The notes below the pieces were generated by a model, which saw nothing but the letters and a program-made list of their open reading frames with translations, ran no database searches and was not told the DNA's origin. The translations under genes were made by a program, and so were the position numbers. A stretch of DNA of 41,409 bases from Acidobacteriota bacterium (GTDB taxonomy: Bacteria; Actinomycetota; Acidimicrobiia; Spongiisociales; UBA5794): assembly GCA_022562055.1 (NCBI GenBank), contig JADFQA010000028.1, positions 1 to 41,409 on the forward strand. Direction: 5' to 3'. The first letter of the stretch is position 1, and the number at the start of each line of letters is the position of its first letter. Below are positions 22,622 through 39,630 of the stretch, one piece after another.

Positions 22622-23727
22622 TGCCACCTACTCTCCGCCTCCGCATGCTGGATGAGCACGTCGTTACGCTCGCGGTTGAGGGAGGGGTGTATGCGCACGC
22701 GACAGGGCGAGGCCAGATACTGGACCTGACCCACTTGTGGGCTGTCCCCGGACTCGTTGACGCACATGCACACCTCGTCGCCGCCTCGACGGTCGAAATG
22801 CTCGCCACGTGTGGCGAACGTTCAGATATGCGAACAATGCGCAGGTACGCACGAGATCAGCTTGCCGGGGGCGTACTTTTGATGCTCGACAAGGGCGCCA
22901 AGAACAACACAACACTCGCCATGCTGGACATACCCGAGCCGGACCGGCCGGAGCTTCAAATGGCGGGTAAAGCGTTAGCTCCCAAGGGCGGGTATTACCC
23001 AGAATTTCCGGTCGCCGTTTCAGGCGATGACCTAGAGCGGGAAGTGGAAATTGCGTGCTCCACTACGGCAGCTCAATGGATCAAGGTTGTGGGCGATTGG
23101 CCGCGTAAGGGAAAAGGGGCTGTGCCGAATTATACGGAAGGAGAGTTGGCAGCCGCCGTAGCGGTCGCACACGGGCACGGCAGACGAGTCGCGGTTCACA
23201 CAATGGCGCCCGAGGCTCCGTCGTTTGCGGTTCGTGCCGGCGTCGATTCCATCGAACACGGTCTCTTCCTCACCATCTCGGATATCGCAGCACTTGGCGC
23301 TCGGAGAGGAATGTGGGTGCCGACGCTAGTTGCGATGGAAGGCGTTCGCGACCAACTCGGAGCTGAGTCTTCAGGTCGTCGGCTTCTAACGCGGGGCCTC
23401 GAAAATGTTGCGTCACTTTTGACATCGGCGGTTGACGCGGGCGTCCAAGTGCTCGGCGGCACCGATATCGTCTTGCCACACGGTGCGGTGGCTCTTGAGG
23501 CTCCAAAGCTGGTCGAGTATGGACTTTCACCCGAGCAAGCAACGTGGGCAGTGACCGAGGCCGGCTACGTTGCACTCGGGATCGCGAACCTTGAGTCGGG
23601 TTGTGCGGCTGACGTCACGCTTTTCGCGGCACACCCGCACCTTGACGTAAAGGAGTTGCAGACGCCTGTGGGAATTCTCCGCAGGGGCAGCTGGCTCGTT
23701 GCTCCTCCTCTGTCGCACGCGACTTAG
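22621..23727 (+). CDS. Amidohydrolase family protein
   Basis: The 368-aa metal-dependent hydrolase has the amidohydrolase motif PGLVDAHAHL near residue 43, a Lys in QWIKVVGDW (metal-bridging candidate), VAVHTMAPEA, SIEHGL, and the distal GGTDIVL Asp. These are the residues expected of the imidazolonepropionase/prolidase-type branch. It is cytoplasmic, with substrate unknown. It overlaps no neighbour, and the ABC pair starts 49 bp downstream. Confidence 0.86.
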   Translation: MPPTLRLRMLDEHVVTLAVEGGVYAHATGRGQILDLTHLWAVPGLVDAHAHLVAASTVEMLATCGERSDMRTMRRYARDQLAGGVLLMLDKGAKNNTTLAMLDIPEPDRPELQMAGKALAPKGGYYPEFPVAVSGDDLEREVEIACSTTAAQWIKVVGDWPRKGKGAVPNYTEGELAAAVAVAHGHGRRVAVHTMAPEAPSFAVRAGVDSIEHGLFLTISDIAALGARRGMWVPTLVAMEGVRDQLGAESSGRRLLTRGLENVASLLTSAVDAGVQVLGGTDIVLPHGAVALEAPKLVEYGLSPEQATWAVTEAGYVALGIANLESGCAADVTLFAAHPHLDVKELQTPVGILRRGSWLVAPPLSHAT

Positions 23728-23744
23728 CAATCCCGCACGGAAGG

Positions 23745-23750
23745 TACTAT
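23745..23750 (+). promoter_or_regulatory. Candidate -10 of the ABC exporter operon
   Basis: TACTAT lies 27 bp before the ATG, with CTTAGC at 23723-23728 (16-bp spacer) as a weak -35. A small dyad GCGGC-CGT-GCCGC (23753-23765) follows it. Confidence 0.35.
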
Positions 23751-23776
23751 TTGCGGCCGTGCCGCAGGGAGTCTGT

Positions 23777-25591
23777 ATGGCCGACCGACAACAGAAAGAC
23801 ACGCTGCGTACGGTGCTCGCAGCCGGGTTTCGGCTCGTCGGGCGCTACATAGCGTGGCATCCGCTCGCGTTCGCTCTGGCCGTCGTTGGGGCGACGGTGT
23901 TCGCGTCTGCGATCATCGGTGCTGCGGTGTTTGTCGGTTCGATAGCTGACAACTTCGTGCTGCCGATCATTGAAGGCGGCGAACCCGTTGGGAACCGCGG
24001 TCTCGTCGCAGGAGCGGTGTTGCTGGGTATAGCGACGTGGAAGGCCACGGGTATCGTGCTGCGGCGTAGTGCTGCCGGTTTCCTACAGTTCCGCACGCAG
24101 GCCGATGTCCGCCAAAAACTCGTTGACCACCAGTTGTCGCTCACGTTGGCGTGGTACCAGGGACGATCTGTAGGTGACCTCCTTGCTGTGTCCGACGCAG
24201 ATGCTCGTGGCGCAACGTTTGTCCTCGCACCGCTCCCATACGGTACGGCTGCGGTCGTCCTCCTCGTGGGCACTGTCGTCATCACGTTCACGGTTGACGC
24301 GCTGCTCGGCGTGGTCGTTCTCCTAGCGATCGCGGCAGCGTTGGTGGTAGATGTCTGGGGAGCGTGGCTGATATTCCAAGGCTTCGAGCGCGTTCAGGCA
24401 AAAAGAGGTGCCGTCAGCGACGTCACCCACGAATCGTTTGACGGGGCGCTCACGGTGAAGGCTCTTGGGCGGGAGGCTTTCGAAACCGATCGGGTCAGAA
24501 GGGTGTCTGAGGAGCTGCGGGATGAGTTGATTTACGTCGGCGTTCTCAGGGGGAACCTCACAGCGGCTGTCGACGCGATTCTGCCGCTCGCAACGGTTGC
24601 GATTCTCGTTCTTGGGGCACTTCGTTTCGCTGACGGTGGTGCGACTCCAGGAGAGCTTGTCACAGTTGCGTACCTTCTGTCTCAGTTGGTGTTTCCGGTT
24701 CGGATTGTCGGGTTTGTGTTGTGGGAGATGGCAGCCGGGGTCGCCGCCTGGCACCGGGTCGCCGAAATCCTCGACGCGGATGATGTGCAGTCCTACGGTG
24801 CTCTTCGTAGCAAGCCCGACACGTCAGGCGCCGACGTTGCGACGGATGCGGTGGAGTTCTCGTATGTATCGGGTGATCGGATCCTTGCAGACGTTGATCT
24901 GACTATTGAGCCGGGAACAACTGTTGCCGTTGTCGGACCAACCGCGTCTGGAAAGTCGACCCTCGTGATGTTGCTGGCGCGTCTCTGGGACCCGGTTTCT
25001 GGTGTCATCAAGCTTGACGCTCGCGATCTGCGAGACTTCGCCCGGTCCGAACTGCCCTCCGAGATTGCTTACGTTGGTCAGGACACGTTTCTGTTCGACA
25101 ACTCTGTTACGGGCAACATCGGTCTTGGTTCTATCAACAACGCCACAATCATCGAAATGGCAGCCGAGCTCGCCGCGGCAACCGAATTCATTAACGCCTT
25201 GCCGAAAGGGTTCGCCACGAGAATTGGTGAAAGAGGAGCCTCGCTGTCCGGTGGGCAGCGGCAACGAATAGCAATCGCCCGAGCACTCGCACGACAACCT
25301 CGACTACTCATCCTCGACGACGCAACGTCGGCGGTTGACCCCACGGTGGAATCGCGAATTCTTGCGGCACTGAGTTCCAGCGCTATGCCGGCAACCATCG
25401 TCATGGTGGCGTACCGACCTTCTTCGATCCGACTTGCCGATACCGTGGTGTACATCGAGGGAGGCCGCATCGTTGCACATGCAACCCATGGTGACCTTAT
25501 GAAGTCGCACCCGGGTTACGCCCGCCTCCTGCAAGCGTACGAACACGATGCGCAGAGGCGGTCGTCAACAGACGCCGGGAGTCTGTCATGA
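23777..25591 (+). CDS. ABC exporter half-transporter with degenerate ATP site
   Basis: The 604-aa half-transporter has an N-terminal six-helix exporter domain (about 20-330) and a C-terminal nucleotide-binding domain. Walker A has K393 (GPTASGKST) and the signature is intact LSGGQ (490-494). Walker B reads LLILDD with D515 in place of the catalytic Glu, and the switch residue is Y546 (VAYRP) instead of His. It pairs with the next gene, which has LSAGE instead of LSGGQ. In heterodimeric exporters the two sites differ in exactly this way, with one non-hydrolysing. ATG at 23777 has GGGAG upstream. Cargo unknown. Confidence 0.9.
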   Translation: MADRQQKDTLRTVLAAGFRLVGRYIAWHPLAFALAVVGATVFASAIIGAAVFVGSIADNFVLPIIEGGEPVGNRGLVAGAVLLGIATWKATGIVLRRSAAGFLQFRTQADVRQKLVDHQLSLTLAWYQGRSVGDLLAVSDADARGATFVLAPLPYGTAAVVLLVGTVVITFTVDALLGVVVLLAIAAALVVDVWGAWLIFQGFERVQAKRGAVSDVTHESFDGALTVKALGREAFETDRVRRVSEELRDELIYVGVLRGNLTAAVDAILPLATVAILVLGALRFADGGATPGELVTVAYLLSQLVFPVRIVGFVLWEMAAGVAAWHRVAEILDADDVQSYGALRSKPDTSGADVATDAVEFSYVSGDRILADVDLTIEPGTTVAVVGPTASGKSTLVMLLARLWDPVSGVIKLDARDLRDFARSELPSEIAYVGQDTFLFDNSVTGNIGLGSINNATIIEMAAELAAATEFINALPKGFATRIGERGASLSGGQRQRIAIARALARQPRLLILDDATSAVDPTVESRILAALSSSAMPATIVMVAYRPSSIRLADTVVYIEGGRIVAHATHGDLMKSHPGYARLLQAYEHDAQRRSSTDAGSLS

Positions 25592-27363
25592 GCACATCCG
25601 GGGTATCTACGTCGGCCGCCCTGCGTCGCGCGTTCGTGGTCGCTCCGTCGCTGCGTAACGGTCTCGGAGTTACTCTCGCCCTCGCTGTGGCAGGGACGGC
25701 GCTGCGCCTCGTGGTGCCGTTTGCAGTACAGCAAATTCTCGACAGACAGCTCTTCGGTGGTGGGGCCGTTGACACGGGCACCGTGCTCACGAGCGGTGGC
25801 ATCGCCGCAGCCGCGATGGTTCTCTCAGCGCTGGCTGCGCGCGCTTCGACGATACGGCTTGCCACCGCAGCAGCGACCGGACTGTCGGACCTTCGCGTCC
25901 TCACGTTTGGCCATCTACAGAGCCTGTCAGTTCTCCACACTGAAGCGGAACGTCGCGGTGCATTAGTAGCGCGTGTGACAAGCGATCCCGAGACGATTGC
26001 ACAGTTCATGCAGTGGGGTGGCGTCGGACTTATCGTGGGCACCGCCCAAGTTTCGCTGACCTTCGTGGTGATGATGATCTTCGATTGGCGCCTTACGGGC
26101 GTAGTCGTCGCCGGAGTTGTCGTCTATGCCGCCGCCCTTTGGTGGTTTCAGAGTATTCTGCGGCGGGCCCACGACCGAGTCCGCGGTCTCGTGGCGAAGA
26201 GCCTCACCGTAATTGGCGAAGCAATCTCAGGTCTGCCAGTGATACGAGCGTTCGGGATCGAGGCCGAGACGTCAGAGAACGTCCGGGGCGCCATAGACGA
26301 GCAATTCGTAGCCGAGTACGACACGGGTCGTCTTGGGGCTTTCCTCTTCTCATCCGCGGAAATCTTTGCTGGAGCGATCAACGGAGCGGTAGTCATGGTC
26401 GGCCTTACATTGGGCGGCAACGGGTCGCTCAGTCCCGGGACGTTGATCGCATTCCTCTTCCTCATCAACCTGTTTGTCGAGCCGATCCAGATGCTTGTCG
26501 AAGTCGTTGATCAGGCGCAAGCCGCCGGATCGGGTCTGAGGCGGATCCTCGATGTTCTCGACACACCGAGTGATGTGCCAGAGGTGACCCCTGCCGAAGC
26601 GCAACAGTTGCCGACCGCGATGCTTGACGTCGTTTTTGAGGCCGTTCGGTACCGCTATCCGGACGGGGAAGTCGATGTTCTCAGAGACATTTCGGTAACG
26701 GTTCGCGCCGGAGAAAATGTCGCGATTGTTGGGGAGACGGGTTCAGGAAAGACAACGTTTGCGAAGTTGGCAACGCGCCTCATTGACCCGAGCAGCGGCG
26801 CGATCAGCCTGGGGTCAGTTCCGCTGCTTGCGGTGCAGTTCGATGACCTCCGATCACATGTTGCATATGTGCCCCAGGAGGGGTTTCTCTTTGACACGAC
26901 GATCGAACAAAACGTCCGTTACGGCGACCTGGATTGCACGCTTGGTGACATTCGCGCCGCGTTTGACGACCTTGGACTCAGCGGGTGGGTGGAGGGGCTT
27001 CCAGACGGACTCCAGACAGAGGTCGGCGAGCAGGGCTCATCGCTGTCCGCGGGCGAACGCCAACTCGTCGCCCTCACGCGGGCGTGGATAGCTCGACCGA
27101 CGTTGTTGGTTCTCGACGAGGCAACGTCTGCGGTGGACCCCGTATTGGATGTGCAACTCCGCCAGGCAATGGAGCGCATCATCAGCTCGCGAACGTCTCT
27201 CACCATTGCACACCGCCTGTCTACGGCTGAAGCGGCAGACAGGATTCTGGTCTTTGCCGACGGTGAACTAGTCGAAGACGGCACCCATGTGGAGCTTCTC
27301 GCGAAGAATGGAACATACGCCGCGATGCACGCCCACTGGGAACACGGAACCATTAGCGCATGA
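25588..27363 (+). CDS. ABC exporter half-transporter with canonical catalytic residues
   Basis: The 591-aa partner overlaps the first half by 4 bp (ATGA). It has an N-terminal membrane domain (about 1-330), Walker A with K388 (GETGSGKTT), Walker B LLVLDE with catalytic E511, and H542 in IAHRLST. Its signature is LSAGE (486-490) rather than LSGGQ. It therefore supplies the catalytic part of the active site, while its own changed signature faces the partner's degenerate Walker B. A drug, lipid or peptide exporter is expected; the cargo cannot be inferred. Confidence 0.92.
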   Translation: MSTSGVSTSAALRRAFVVAPSLRNGLGVTLALAVAGTALRLVVPFAVQQILDRQLFGGGAVDTGTVLTSGGIAAAAMVLSALAARASTIRLATAAATGLSDLRVLTFGHLQSLSVLHTEAERRGALVARVTSDPETIAQFMQWGGVGLIVGTAQVSLTFVVMMIFDWRLTGVVVAGVVVYAAALWWFQSILRRAHDRVRGLVAKSLTVIGEAISGLPVIRAFGIEAETSENVRGAIDEQFVAEYDTGRLGAFLFSSAEIFAGAINGAVVMVGLTLGGNGSLSPGTLIAFLFLINLFVEPIQMLVEVVDQAQAAGSGLRRILDVLDTPSDVPEVTPAEAQQLPTAMLDVVFEAVRYRYPDGEVDVLRDISVTVRAGENVAIVGETGSGKTTFAKLATRLIDPSSGAISLGSVPLLAVQFDDLRSHVAYVPQEGFLFDTTIEQNVRYGDLDCTLGDIRAAFDDLGLSGWVEGLPDGLQTEVGEQGSSLSAGERQLVALTRAWIARPTLLVLDEATSAVDPVLDVQLRQAMERIISSRTSLTIAHRLSTAEAADRILVFADGELVEDGTHVELLAKNGTYAAMHAHWEHGTISA

Positions 27364-27460: not shown

Positions 27461-30085
27461 ATGAGGGTTGTAAGGCAGCTTGACGGGTCGGGGGCCCGCG
27501 TCGACGAAGTCGGCGGTAAAGCAGTGGGTCTCGATCGGCTTCTGTCGTACGGATTTCCAGTGCCGAGGGCGCTCGCCGTCACAGTCGATGTCTATCGAGC
27601 CTTCGTAGAAGGTGCCGATCTCCAGGAGGAGCTTGTAAAGATCGCCGCAAGCGAACTCCCACCACCTGAACGAATCGAAGCTGAGACCCGCACTGTTGAC
27701 GGGATGTTCCGAATGGCCGGCCTCGACCACGCAATCGAACAGGAAATCCGAACGGCGCTGCGAACGCTTCTTGCGGAGGGACCGATTGCGGTGCGCTCGT
27801 CTGCAACTGCCGAGGACACGGGGGCGGCATCATTCGCAGGCCAGTACCGCACCGTGCTTGGCATCGAAGACGAGCACGCGGCTCTAGAGGCTATCAAGCT
27901 GTGTTGGGCGTCGCTGTGGGGGCCGTCGGTGCGGGCATATAGGAAGAAAGAACGGATATCCGACGTCGATCTTGCCATGGCGGTTGTGATCCAGGTGATG
28001 GTGCCCGCCCGCCACGCCGGAGTTGTCTTCACCCGAGACCCGCTCGGCGATCCGGAAACTGCCCGCATCGAGATCGTAGAGGGTCTCGGCGAGGCACTCG
28101 TATCAGGGGAGGTGACTCCAGACGACTATCGCGTGGATCGAGCGACCCTGAGGGTGCGGGGTTCCCAAGCCGGCGAAGCGCCCGCCTTCATAGAGGACCT
28201 TGTGCGCATGACGCTGCGAGTCGAACGCCGCTTTGGAGCCCCGATGGATGTCGAATGGGCTCATGACGGCCACCAATTGCTTCTCCTCCAGGCTCGGCCG
28301 ATAACCATTCAAGGCTTCCATCGGCCTGACGACGACGGTTTTGATACCGTCCCAGAACCGGGCAACACGTACACCCCATACGGCCTCGCCGAGATGCTCC
28401 CAGGCGTCATGCCACCGCTCCTGTGGAGCATCAACGCCCCAATGTTGGATAATGCTTTTCGGCGGCTTTTCGCGGATCTTGAAATACCGCCACCGAGGGT
28501 CGCAGGCACGTTCCTCACCATCGGTCGGTTCCGCGGTCGCGCAGCACTCAACCTCAGCGTCCTCAAGGAGGCGGCCGCATCGATGCCTGGCGGTTCGGCC
28601 GCGGAGGTCGAAAGACAGTACCTCGGCAGGGCAGTGTCCGAGGATCTCGGGGATGAAGCAGATCAGAAGACCGGAATCCGCCAGACAATCGCGGGTCTCA
28701 AGTCGCTGCGGGTGCGCAAACGAGTCGAGGACGAAGTCGCCCTGTTCTCTGACGCCGTTGAGTTCATTCTCGCCATCGGAGCAGACCTTGAGGCTCTCCC
28801 CATCCAGCGGCTACTGACCTACCGAGCGAGAATCCGAGATCTAGCGTGGCGTGGTTACGAGGCTGAGATCGCCGCTTCCGCGGGAGCGGCCGCGGCATAT
28901 CGGGGGTTAGAGATTGCCTTGGAGCGTTGGGCCGGAAGAGACGATGCTGCGCTCTGGGCCCAGAGATTGACCGCAGGACCAAACCCGAGCGAGCAAGCGG
29001 GCACCAACTGTGCAGGCGAATTGTGGGACCTCTATGTCGCGGACGTGCAGAACCAGCCACCTTGTGATTACTTGATCAGTGGACCAGTCGAGACCACGGA
29101 GGCTCGGCTTGAGGCACTCGGCGAGGATGGCGCACGGTTTGTGACGGCGGTCCATCGCACTATGCGGCACTTCGGAAGCATGGCGCTGTACGGAGACGTC
29201 ACCTGGGATGAGGATCCGGCGATGGTCTGGGAGTGTGTTGCATCCATGGCGCGGTGCGACGTCGACGGCCACAACATCTCCCCGGCACCCCGCATAGCCG
29301 CCACCAGGCAGAGCCGAGACGAGGCTTTTGACGAACTCGTTGCGGGTTTCAAGAGTTCGTGGAAATGGCGTCTTACGAGGATCATGACGGGCCAAGTCGT
29401 CGACATGCGACGACGGATGCTTCGCAAGTTAGCGGGCGACGCTACCCAGTTCTTGAGTCTTCGAGAACGCGCGAAGGCCGCTCTATTGATCCTTGGGGGA
29501 GAGGAACGCCGACTAATCAAGGAAGCAGCCCGCCGACTCGTTGGGTCCGGCATGATCAACGCCCTCGATGATGTCCTCATGCTCTCGGACCAAGAATTGG
29601 CCCTCATGCTGGTAGGGGAAGAACCCGTATCTGTTGAGGAACTCGCGCGGCGCTCGAATGCGCACGAACAAGCCAAGCTCGGCGATCCGCTGCCGCAAAC
29701 ATTCACCGGGCAACCCGGCGTTGAGGTCTTCGAGCCTGTCGATGGGCAACAGCTGAATGGATGGGCGGCAAGTCCCGGCACTACCCGCGGTCGGGTACGT
29801 CTTCTCGCGACAGTGGCGGACGGTGCAAAGCTTGAAGCGGGCGATGTTCTGGTCGCCAGGAGTACCGACCCCAGTTGGACGCCGCTGTTTCTGATCGCCG
29901 GTGCCATTGTTCTCGAAGAGGGCGGGCCGCTCTCGCACGCCGCAATCGTCGCCCGCGAGTTTGGGATTCCCGCTGTTCTCAACGTCAAGGGCGCACTGCG
30001 CTCGCTCGAAGAAGGTGCCGAGGTCGAAGTCGACGGCACTGTTGGAACCGTCACCTTGCTCGACGACTTCAGGGACGCCGCATGA
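27461..30085 (+). CDS. PEP-utilising phosphotransferase, rifampicin-phosphotransferase-like
   Basis: The 874-aa protein has an N-terminal ATP-grasp-like domain (about 1-310; K20 in VGGKAVGL, AVRSSATAEDTGAASFAGQ, GVVFTRDPLGD, LLLLQARPITIQG). A central variable domain (about 330-760) and a C-terminal swivelling His domain follow (EEGGPLSHAAIVAREFG with H826). In listerial RPH the catalytic His is at 825, and the domain order and length agree. That enzyme uses ATP and the His to phosphorylate rifampicin; a PEP-synthase-like role remains possible. The ATG at 27461 is chosen to match the family start; no good ribosome site is visible and GTG 27443 is an alternative. The next gene overlaps by 4 bp. 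Confidence 0.85.
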   Translation: MRVVRQLDGSGARVDEVGGKAVGLDRLLSYGFPVPRALAVTVDVYRAFVEGADLQEELVKIAASELPPPERIEAETRTVDGMFRMAGLDHAIEQEIRTALRTLLAEGPIAVRSSATAEDTGAASFAGQYRTVLGIEDEHAALEAIKLCWASLWGPSVRAYRKKERISDVDLAMAVVIQVMVPARHAGVVFTRDPLGDPETARIEIVEGLGEALVSGEVTPDDYRVDRATLRVRGSQAGEAPAFIEDLVRMTLRVERRFGAPMDVEWAHDGHQLLLLQARPITIQGFHRPDDDGFDTVPEPGNTYTPYGLAEMLPGVMPPLLWSINAPMLDNAFRRLFADLEIPPPRVAGTFLTIGRFRGRAALNLSVLKEAAASMPGGSAAEVERQYLGRAVSEDLGDEADQKTGIRQTIAGLKSLRVRKRVEDEVALFSDAVEFILAIGADLEALPIQRLLTYRARIRDLAWRGYEAEIAASAGAAAAYRGLEIALERWAGRDDAALWAQRLTAGPNPSEQAGTNCAGELWDLYVADVQNQPPCDYLISGPVETTEARLEALGEDGARFVTAVHRTMRHFGSMALYGDVTWDEDPAMVWECVASMARCDVDGHNISPAPRIAATRQSRDEAFDELVAGFKSSWKWRLTRIMTGQVVDMRRRMLRKLAGDATQFLSLRERAKAALLILGGEERRLIKEAARRLVGSGMINALDDVLMLSDQELALMLVGEEPVSVEELARRSNAHEQAKLGDPLPQTFTGQPGVEVFEPVDGQQLNGWAASPGTTRGRVRLLATVADGAKLEAGDVLVARSTDPSWTPLFLIAGAIVLEEGGPLSHAAIVAREFGIPAVLNVKGALRSLEEGAEVEVDGTVGTVTLLDDFRDAA

Positions 30086-30693
30086 GGCGCTTCACCGAGT
30101 ACGAACTGCTGACATCCCCACTGCGAAGAGATCTCACGGTTACAGACGATGCCCCTGGGCTCAACGTCTTCGTCCCGGGTCTCATGGGGGCAGGGATACT
30201 GCTGTCGGCAGGAATTCTTGTCAGCGACGGCATCAAGAAACTATTCCCCAACAGCGGCACAAGAAGGCGTATAGACGTTACCCGCGGGGTCCAACGAATT
30301 GTCGCCGACGTTGCCGCTGCGGCAGGAGTCGCTATCAACGAGGACAATATCTCCCGGCGTAAGCTCCGCAGTGTTGCCTGGTATACATTCGGGGCGGCCA
30401 CCGCCGCGGTCGTTGCGTTCGCGTCGGTGTCCCGCGGAATCGAGGCGTATGCGACCGCCGGACTCTTCGAAGAGAACGCCATCGCTATCGTGTTCGGTTC
30501 TGTGGTAGCAGCGATCGCAACAGCGTTTGCGGTCGTGTTAGCGTTACTGGCGTTGGGCAGAAATCGGCGTATTCCCGGTATCACCGCCTTGATGGAATCG
30601 ACCGCCCTGGGGCGGCTCAACGCACCACCAGAGAGCAGACTGGATCGGGCACGGCTGCTCATCCCCGAGTTTCAAGAAGGAGATACGCGATGA
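30082..30693 (+). CDS. Hypothetical membrane protein of the Rph-like operon
   Basis: The 203-aa protein has three probable membrane segments (about 24-45, 90-110, 122-148). The first follows a polar N-terminus. The C-terminal 50 residues (GRNRRIPGITALMESTALGR, then ESRLDRARLLIPEFQEG) are soluble. No family is recognised. It overlaps the Rph-like stop (ATGA) and its own end overlaps the next gene (ATGA), so the three should be co-translated. A membrane platform for the phosphotransferase is one idea from position only. Confidence 0.65.
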   Translation: MRRFTEYELLTSPLRRDLTVTDDAPGLNVFVPGLMGAGILLSAGILVSDGIKKLFPNSGTRRRIDVTRGVQRIVADVAAAAGVAINEDNISRRKLRSVAWYTFGAATAAVVAFASVSRGIEAYATAGLFEENAIAIVFGSVVAAIATAFAVVLALLALGRNRRIPGITALMESTALGRLNAPPESRLDRARLLIPEFQEGDTR

Positions 30694-31064
30694 ACAAAAG
30701 ACGTATTGCAACAGTCAGCCTCTTTGGCTTCGTCGGTTACGCCGGCATCTACATATTTATCTACCTGTGGCGTGCCTTTCGGGTTGCAGAACCCGAAAAC
30801 CTTCAGTACGTTGCACTGTGGCACGGCGATAACTTTTCCCGTTCGATTCTGGTTTCAGTGCTCTTCCTGATCGGGCTGGTCGTGATGCTCCACGTGTCGC
30901 TTCTCAGACGTCAAGGTGGATCCGGGCAGATCACGCTACGGTTGGATGTTCAGGAATGGCTTGTACGACAGGCAGAGGCGACGAACGAGGACCCATCTCG
31001 TTTGGCCGATCGGGCGATCAGCACCTACCGGGCCCGCGTCGAAGGCACAAGGACGACGAGCTAG
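30690..31064 (+). CDS. Two-helix membrane protein with a ribbon-helix-helix-like C-terminal domain
   Basis: The 124-aa protein has two hydrophobic segments (about 9-27 and 52-72), then a linker RRQGGSG. Residues 80-117 (QITLRLDVQEWLVRQAEATN, then EDPSRLADRAISTYRARV) fit the RHH/CopG pattern: a short strand ITLRLD, a helix, a turn and a second helix with the SxLxxxAI spacing. If folded that way it would be a membrane-tethered DNA-binding or dimerisation domain. It is coupled by overlap to the preceding gene. No such arrangement is known to me, and the RHH reading is inference from pattern. Confidence 0.6.
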   Translation: MNKRRIATVSLFGFVGYAGIYIFIYLWRAFRVAEPENLQYVALWHGDNFSRSILVSVLFLIGLVVMLHVSLLRRQGGSGQITLRLDVQEWLVRQAEATNEDPSRLADRAISTYRARVEGTRTTS

Positions 31065-31091: not shown

Positions 31092-31817
31092 CTACTCACT
31101 GATGCGGGTTCGGGTGCTGAACTCGCATCCCAGCTCGCCACCAAAGTGGTGCCCGCGCAGCGACCATGCAACGGTGATCACAAACGCGGTTCCGACGAGG
31201 AGAGCCCCAACAACGTCCGAAAACCAATGGACGTCGAGATAGACCCGCGAGATCGCGACGCCGAGGATGATTGTGGTGGCCGCGACATAGCCCGCGACAC
31301 GCACCGCCGTCCGATTGGATGAACGCCACAACACCGCGGCGAGCACCCCGTAGAATCCGACCGTTGCCAGCACATGTCCACTGGGAAAGGACGGGCCGTT
31401 ACCCGGAACCAAACGCGCAAGGTCAGGACGAGGTCGGTCGACGATCGTTTTGAGGGCGTATTCGAGCGGCGGGTTGGCTAGGAAGGCGATGGTCATCACA
31501 GTGAGCGCTCTCTGACATCGCCCGGTCCGCACCACCCACACAGCCAAAAGAAGCAGCAGGGTGCCAATTGTCCATCGGCTCCCGAGACGAGTGACCCATA
31601 TCATTGTCTCGTTTAACCAGGGCCTACGCAGCTCGATCAATTCCTCTTGAACCGTGCCATCGAGGCTCACAATCCACGACGCCCTTGACGCCACCAAGAC
31701 GGCCAACACAACGAAGGCAGCGATGGAGGTGACAAACAGCTGAAACCCGGGACCTCGGTTGATGGACCGCTGAACTGTTTGTCTCCAACGTGAAATCTCA
31801 GTCTTCGTCGTCGACAT
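31092..31817 (-). CDS. PAP2-family phosphatase
   Basis: The 241-aa membrane phosphatase of the PAP2 superfamily has about six hydrophobic segments. The three catalytic motifs are KTIVDRPRP, PSGHVLA and SRVYLDVHWFSDV. It would dephosphorylate lipid phosphates such as undecaprenyl pyrophosphate or phosphatidate, on the outer face of the membrane. The start MSTTKTEISRWRQT is a cytoplasmic tail. It is convergent with the RHH-like gene, with a 27-bp gap. No terminator hairpin is clear there. Confidence 0.9.
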   Translation of the reverse strand: MSTTKTEISRWRQTVQRSINRGPGFQLFVTSIAAFVVLAVLVASRASWIVSLDGTVQEELIELRRPWLNETMIWVTRLGSRWTIGTLLLLLAVWVVRTGRCQRALTVMTIAFLANPPLEYALKTIVDRPRPDLARLVPGNGPSFPSGHVLATVGFYGVLAAVLWRSSNRTAVRVAGYVAATTIILGVAISRVYLDVHWFSDVVGALLVGTAFVITVAWSLRGHHFGGELGCEFSTRTRISE

Positions 31818-38772: not shown

Positions 38773-39630
38773 ATGGGAAAACGCGTGGGTGTTGAGGAAC
38801 TTCATAGGTACGCACATGCGCTGATGGACCGCGCAGGTACTCAGCATGATTTCCCTGAAAGGTTTCACCGGGAGCCGCAGACGCTTACGCGATTCCTACG
38901 TACCCCACGTGTCGCTGTCGCCTCCGTTGGCCTAGTTGTCTTCGGAAACTTAGGCATGGCAGCCGCAAGCGATGGAGCGGCTCCCGGTGATATTCTCTAT
39001 TCGATCGACCGAGTGTACGAACGGTTGGCAAGCTTTGTCGGGTTCGACCTCGGCGGTCCTAGCGAACGTCTCGATGAGGCCCGTGTCATGCTGGTCCGGG
39101 GCGAATCGGATGCGGCTTTGATGCTCGTGTCCGAGGCAGTCATAGATACCGATCAGATGCTCGCTGGCGACATTGAGGACCTGGCTGCGGCGATTCATGG
39201 TCCCGCTTCGCCGTCGAGTGACCCCGCCGACTTAGAACCTTCGGTCACCGCTCTGGTAGCCGCAGCGGAGAGCTTCGTCAACGCTGCACCTTCGGGTGTT
39301 GGCATTGCAAGAGCAGAACTCATAGGACGCTCCAACGACGTCGCTGTTGCCGGAGGGTCCGAGTGGCGGGTGCCACCAGGCCACAACAGTGGGTTTGTGC
39401 CGCCAGGTCAGAACGATGAGTTCATACCACCAGGCCAACCCGATGGTTCGCTTCCCCCGGGTCAGGACGACGATTTCACTCCCCCGGGTCAGGACGACGA
39501 TTTCACTCCCCCGGGTCAGGACGACGATTTCACTCCCCCGGGTCAGGACGACGATTTCACTCCCCCGGGTCAGGACGGCGGCAGCGAGAATAGTTCCGGT
39601 GGTAACGGAAACGGAAACGAGGACGGGTAG
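38773..39630 (+). CDS. DUF5667-like membrane protein with PPGQ repeats
   Basis: The 285-aa protein has a short N-terminal region, one TM-like segment (about 46-66) and a DUF5667-like stretch (GAAPGDILYSIDRVYERLAS, then ARVMLVRGESDAALML). The tail from about residue 204 repeats PPG-Q-like units, with exact PPGQDDDFT copies (from 39454). A glycine/asparagine end (GGNGNGNEDG) follows. DUF5667 often sits in sigma/anti-sigma pairs, which fits the next gene. ATG 38773 is used; the frame also opens at TTG 38743. No clear ribosome site supports either start. Confidence 0.6.
   Translation: MGKRVGVEELHRYAHALMDRAGTQHDFPERFHREPQTLTRFLRTPRVAVASVGLVVFGNLGMAAASDGAAPGDILYSIDRVYERLASFVGFDLGGPSERLDEARVMLVRGESDAALMLVSEAVIDTDQMLAGDIEDLAAAIHGPASPSSDPADLEPSVTALVAAAESFVNAAPSGVGIARAELIGRSNDVAVAGGSEWRVPPGHNSGFVPPGQNDEFIPPGQPDGSLPPGQDDDFTPPGQDDDFTPPGQDDDFTPPGQDDDFTPPGQDGGSENSSGGNGNGNEDG
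39454..39577 (+). repeat. 27-bp tandem repeat, four exact copies plus partial
   Basis: Exact copies of a 27-bp unit encoding PPGQDDDFT occur at 39454-39480, 39481-39507, 39508-39534 and 39535-39561; a fifth partial copy reaches about 39577. Unit identity suggests recent expansion by slippage or recombination. The preceding PPGQ-like units (from 39379) have diverged. Confidence 0.92.

Follow-up and report, generated by a model that had tools for sequence, protein, structure and literature searches.

The three overlapping genes at positions 27,461 to 31,064 of the stretch of DNA analysed here (the window, 41,409 nucleotides) and a neighbouring membrane phosphatase gene are read by us, with a probability of roughly 0.4, as one membrane-associated phosphorylation/dephosphorylation module, in which a membrane-soluble alcohol would be phosphorylated inside and dephosphorylated outside. 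The A-B-C-phosphatase set looks like an undescribed system in which phosphate is added on the inner side of the membrane and removed on the outer side, and we found no description of an operon of such make-up in the open-access literature. The elements from which the model is built, i.e. the enzyme class and catalytic residues of A, the predicted fold of the tail of C, the gene linkage, the natural fusions and the exchange of phosphatases, come from sequence and predicted structure.

Gene A (27,461-30,085, + strand, 874 amino acids; Pfam PPDK_N and PEP-utilizers) encodes an enzyme whose sequence and predicted structure support its assignment to the RPH-type small-molecule dikinases. An ATP-grasp domain (residues ~15-285) is followed by a substrate-binding middle domain (~300-745) and a C-terminal swivel phosphohistidine domain (~762-868), which is the domain order of this enzyme type. 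We preferred the ATG at 27,461 as the start over the longer frame from 27,287, because the homologues begin at about the same position. The phosphohistidine, H826, sits within the swivel motif GGPLSHAAIVARE, and is, similarly to K20, R112 and R668/E669/K672, invariant in all 20 aligned sequences. The profile made from these sequences could be aligned with the RPH of L. monocytogenes in the ATP-grasp as well as in the C-terminal half, with R668/E669/K672 standing opposite R666/E667/K670, the residues that hold the phosphate in RPH and form its catalytic set with K22, R117 and H825 (PMC4844700); thus A has the catalytic lysine, arginine, R-E-K triad and histidine expected of the class. The AlphaFold2 model of A (pLDDT 81) found RPH (5hv1) as its best match in the PDB, over the whole length of the protein (766 residues, Z 30.7, rmsd 15.8); the large rmsd probably reflects a difference in the placement of the domains. 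The Pfam domains, the invariant residues, and the profile and structural matches to RPH bear out the first-pass annotation, which had recognised an RPH-type enzyme with H826. Although A and RPH (5hv1/5fbs) share the order of ATP-grasp, substrate and swivel-histidine domains, A is only ~21-24% identical to RPH, and RPH was described to act alone as a soluble enzyme, with neither membrane partners nor a phosphatase.

No substrate can be named for A by homology, since it scores under the cut-off for every named NCBIfam family with which it was compared. With 278 bits against the cut-off of 999 of NF041857 (rifamycin-inactivating RPH) it was rejected as a recognised rifamycin kinase. It was also rejected as a PEP synthase (TIGR01418, 287 bits, cut-off 740), on the ground of domain order: H826 is near the end of the 874-residue chain, and the Pfam domain search did not find the PEP/pyruvate-binding barrel. 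That the enzyme acts solely as a PEP synthase, an outcome that would have spoken against the original proposal, is therefore unlikely. The best NCBIfam scores of A were obtained with the RedH/PigC prodigiosin ligases, which have ATP and swivel domains in common with it; these are, however, ligases of pigment biosynthesis, and A is far below their cut-offs. Chemistry and domains are shared also with HpeHI, CreHI and phenylphosphate synthase, and HpeI, the ATP-grasp part of the first of these, matches A structurally, but the three enzymes are split into two soluble chains and function in aromatic catabolism (PMC12167813), and neither an RHH transmembrane protein nor a membrane phosphatase has been reported for them. 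Some copies of A do not seem to work as full enzymes: at L043 (1645-3276) the middle substrate domain is missing in frame, and at L038 (5540-8110), where the middle domain and the swivel histidine are retained, the ATP-grasp motif (RSSATAED) is degenerate. The latter copy may be a pseudo-kinase or a gene in decay.

The other two genes of the trio encode membrane proteins. The hydropathy scan detected three hydrophobic regions (~29-51, 98-116 and 128-159) in B (30,082-30,693, + strand, 203 amino acids), whose conserved motif is VFVPGLMGAGIL...SDG, and two (6-24 and 53-71) in C (30,690-31,064, + strand, 124 amino acids), in agreement with the three-helix and two-helix proteins described at first reading. 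In C the two helices are followed by a tail (residues 74-124; 30,909-31,061, + strand) that is predicted to be cytoplasmic and, as had been suspected from the sequence, to form a ribbon-helix-helix (RHH) domain. In the AlphaFold2 model of C, a monomer (pLDDT 74 overall, ~77-90 across residues 81-120), the tail folds into two helices with RHH geometry, and its top matches in the PDB are, with few exceptions, RHH proteins (CopASO, AtaR, PutA, omega, CopG, Arc; Z up to 6.6). The RHH sheet arises only between two chains, thus its absence from the monomer model is expected. The RHH call depends on the structure model, since Pfam searches with C and with its tail matched no RHH family, the PDB profile search with C found the omega repressor with an E value of 0.3, which is below significance, and a profile of the tail alone gave unrelated hits. 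R84, D86, W90 and R108 of the tail are invariant in 19 aligned sequences. The predicted fold is that of CopG, Arc and omega, but C differs from these proteins in having two transmembrane helices in front of the RHH domain and in being encoded in a kinase operon.

The coordinates confirm that the genes overlap by 4 bp at both the A-B and the B-C junctions, all three being on the + strand. Overlaps of 4 bp are seen again in other genomes, so the arrangement is not a matter of chance. In some relatives neighbouring genes of the module are fused. At L043, where the genome is incomplete and the fusion sits on a single small contig, the membrane-RHH part of C and A are joined in a single reading frame. 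B is in one reading frame with PhoD at L082, and with both PAP2 and PhoD at L083 and L084. Judged from their sequences, these natural fusions point to a pairing of C with the kinase and of B with the phosphatase in two sub-assemblies; what we propose below for B is based on the latter three fusions.

The first-pass annotation missed the phosphatase, which we consider the best clue to the function of the module. In the window a gene convergent with the trio (31,092-31,817, - strand) encodes a PAP2 membrane phosphatase (PF01569, E 8e-19, 68 bits against a cut-off of 27.2), in which the three catalytic motifs (KTIVDRPRP, PSGH and SRVYLDVHWFSD) are intact. Either a PAP2 or a PhoD-like gene adjoins every copy of the module with enough flanking sequence; the two loci that have neither, L046 and L078, both end at a contig edge inside A. 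PAP2 is found beside the module in the window and at L032/L075, L034, L036, L037, L043-L045, L073, L074, L076, L077, L079-L081, L083, L084, L089 and L090. The group of the window, the f7 genomes and g4, g19, g44 and g49 have it either convergent with the module or in the same operon. With only about two PAP2 genes per genome on average, adjacency by chance should be rare. PhoD accompanies the module at L035, L038-L042 and L082-L084. Among the 60 relatives PhoD occurs in only eight, and in six of these it takes the place of PAP2 as the gene immediately upstream of A, the two overlapping by 4 bp where this was checked (Fisher p 8e-4, a value that ignores the relatedness of the genomes, as no phylogenetic correction was applied); the PhoD gene of genome G016 is not adjacent to A on its contig. 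The linkage of A, B, C and a phosphatase persists despite changes in gene order, C being the first gene at L044 and L079-L084 and the last in the window group. This arrangement is not a common property of the enzyme family, since none of four distant RPH-type dikinases encoded on plasmids (Rhodococcus, Methylocystis, Haladaptatus and Mycobacterium) has a phosphatase annotated next to its gene, and the plasmid records searched encode no relative of C.

Conservation of the trio, which the original proposal had made a point to check, was found in relatives, mostly represented by draft assemblies: 12 of the 60 genomes have an ortholog of A, and B and/or C is close by in all 12. Across the class the C profile detected members in 26 of 395 genomes, spread over 19 of 184 genera; in a phylum-wide sample it did so in 4 of 396 genomes, one of which belongs to another class and has the full trio. 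The module is missing from two genomes of the same genus, of which one is 97% complete. In the tree of A the copy of the window clusters with copies of other families and of another class and apart from those of its own family, pointing to horizontal transfer. From these sequence comparisons the trio is a conserved but sporadic and apparently horizontally transferred module, occurring mainly in one class and rarely elsewhere in the phylum. An apparent remnant of it was seen in a genome of the same phylum (L090, 7352-8927), where C and pieces of A are accompanied by a convergent PAP2 gene.

In the model that we favour A would be a cytoplasmic ATP-dependent dikinase, whose H826 is phosphorylated from ATP; the swivel domain would then swing to the middle domain, and the phosphate would be passed to a hydroxyl of the substrate near R668/E669/K672. 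This chemistry follows from membership in the RPH family. C would hold A at the cytoplasmic face of the membrane by means of its RHH tail, used for dimerisation or docking and not for reading DNA, and B would pair in the membrane with the phosphatase (PAP2 in the window, PhoD-like or both elsewhere), whose active site should point outward and remove the phosphate on the outer side. We infer the tethering and the outward orientation from the fusions, the hydropathy and what is generally known of PAP2 and PhoD enzymes, and the substrate class and the direction of the cycle are proposed in the same spirit. The substrate would most likely be a membrane-soluble alcohol, such as a lipid, a polyprenol or another hydrophobic small molecule. 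Such a compound fits both a lipid-type phosphatase and a middle domain like that of RPH, which binds the bulky rifamycin; since the substrates of the PAP2 and PhoD families are diverse, a lipid is a guess. A more specific form of the model, in which an RHH-tethered dikinase and an outward PAP2/PhoD enzyme drive a transmembrane phosphate cycle on one lipid-like carrier, the RHH fold having been recruited as a tether, seems doubtful to us; if true, it would represent a novel way of driving lipid phosphorylation and turnover, or vectorial transport, with ATP. The module would resemble the lipid phosphate cycle of DgkA and PAP2 in being a membrane kinase/phosphatase pair, although A is unrelated to DgkA. 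A DgkA-type kinase as a rival lipid kinase was uninformative, being absent from 59 of the 60 relatives, with or without the module.

The same phosphatases could serve uptake: the outer enzyme would dephosphorylate extracellular esters, the alcohol or phenol would diffuse into the cell, and A, held at the membrane, would rephosphorylate it and block its exit. Lipid phosphates are the main substrates of PAP2 enzymes, which speaks against such scavenging, and the catabolic and transport neighbours seen in the window are not shared beside the module in relatives. The idea draws on the adjacency of PhoD and PAP2 to A, on the patchy and mobile distribution of the module, and on the dikinases HpeHI, CreHI and PpsAB, which phosphorylate phenolics, trapping having been proposed for HpeHI (PMC12167813); we consider it unlikely. 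The upstream ABC exporter of the window and the fact that the nearest solved relative of A is RPH could point to self-protection, A inactivating a hydrophobic antibiotic inside the cell and the outer phosphatase re-activating it after export, for which streptomycin and StrK offer a precedent. But relatives do not have the exporter next to the trio, the neighbourhood shows no apparent biosynthetic cluster, and A is far below the cut-off of the rifamycin-inactivating family, which makes antibiotic handling very improbable.

The membrane-linked modification or signal system envisaged in the first-pass annotation has held up in its membrane link, the natural C-A fusion tying the RHH protein to the kinase. 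In a signalling scheme C would be a membrane-bound DNA-binding regulator set by phosphorylation by A, with the phosphatase as off switch. The predicted RHH fold could still bind DNA, given the invariant R84 of its strand region. The remaining strand positions vary, however, with an acidic residue in L042, the fusion puts the RHH tail on the kinase, and neither PAP2 nor PhoD is known to act as a protein phosphatase. C is thus probably not a DNA regulator, and we regard signalling as quite unlikely. A chance run of overlapping genes without common function can practically be dismissed, being already refuted by linkage conserved in several families, recurrent overlaps and natural fusions.

The interest of the module lies in the enzyme family, which is large and whose substrates are mostly unknown (PMC4844700): the conserved link of a dikinase to membrane anchors and lipid-type phosphatases hints, in a way that can be tested, at a substrate class that is new. 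In addition, C has the predicted RHH fold on a membrane protein able to fuse to an enzyme, instead of using it in gene control.

The heterodimeric ABC exporter noted at first reading is indeed encoded upstream of the trio by two genes recognised by Pfam (23,699-25,591 and 25,588-27,363, + strand), but, being absent beside the trio in relatives, it was rejected as a part of the module. Anti-phage defence was rejected as well, as the PADLOC models match none of A, B, C, PAP2 and PhoD. A sigma-70 promoter scan found no promoter. At 39,453-39,577 a perfect 27-bp tandem repeat (4.6 copies) lies within an ORF and encodes a PPGQDDDFT repeat, and a reading frame near the window's left end (934-2,124), some 25 kb away from the trio, resembles, by eye, a phage-type integrase.
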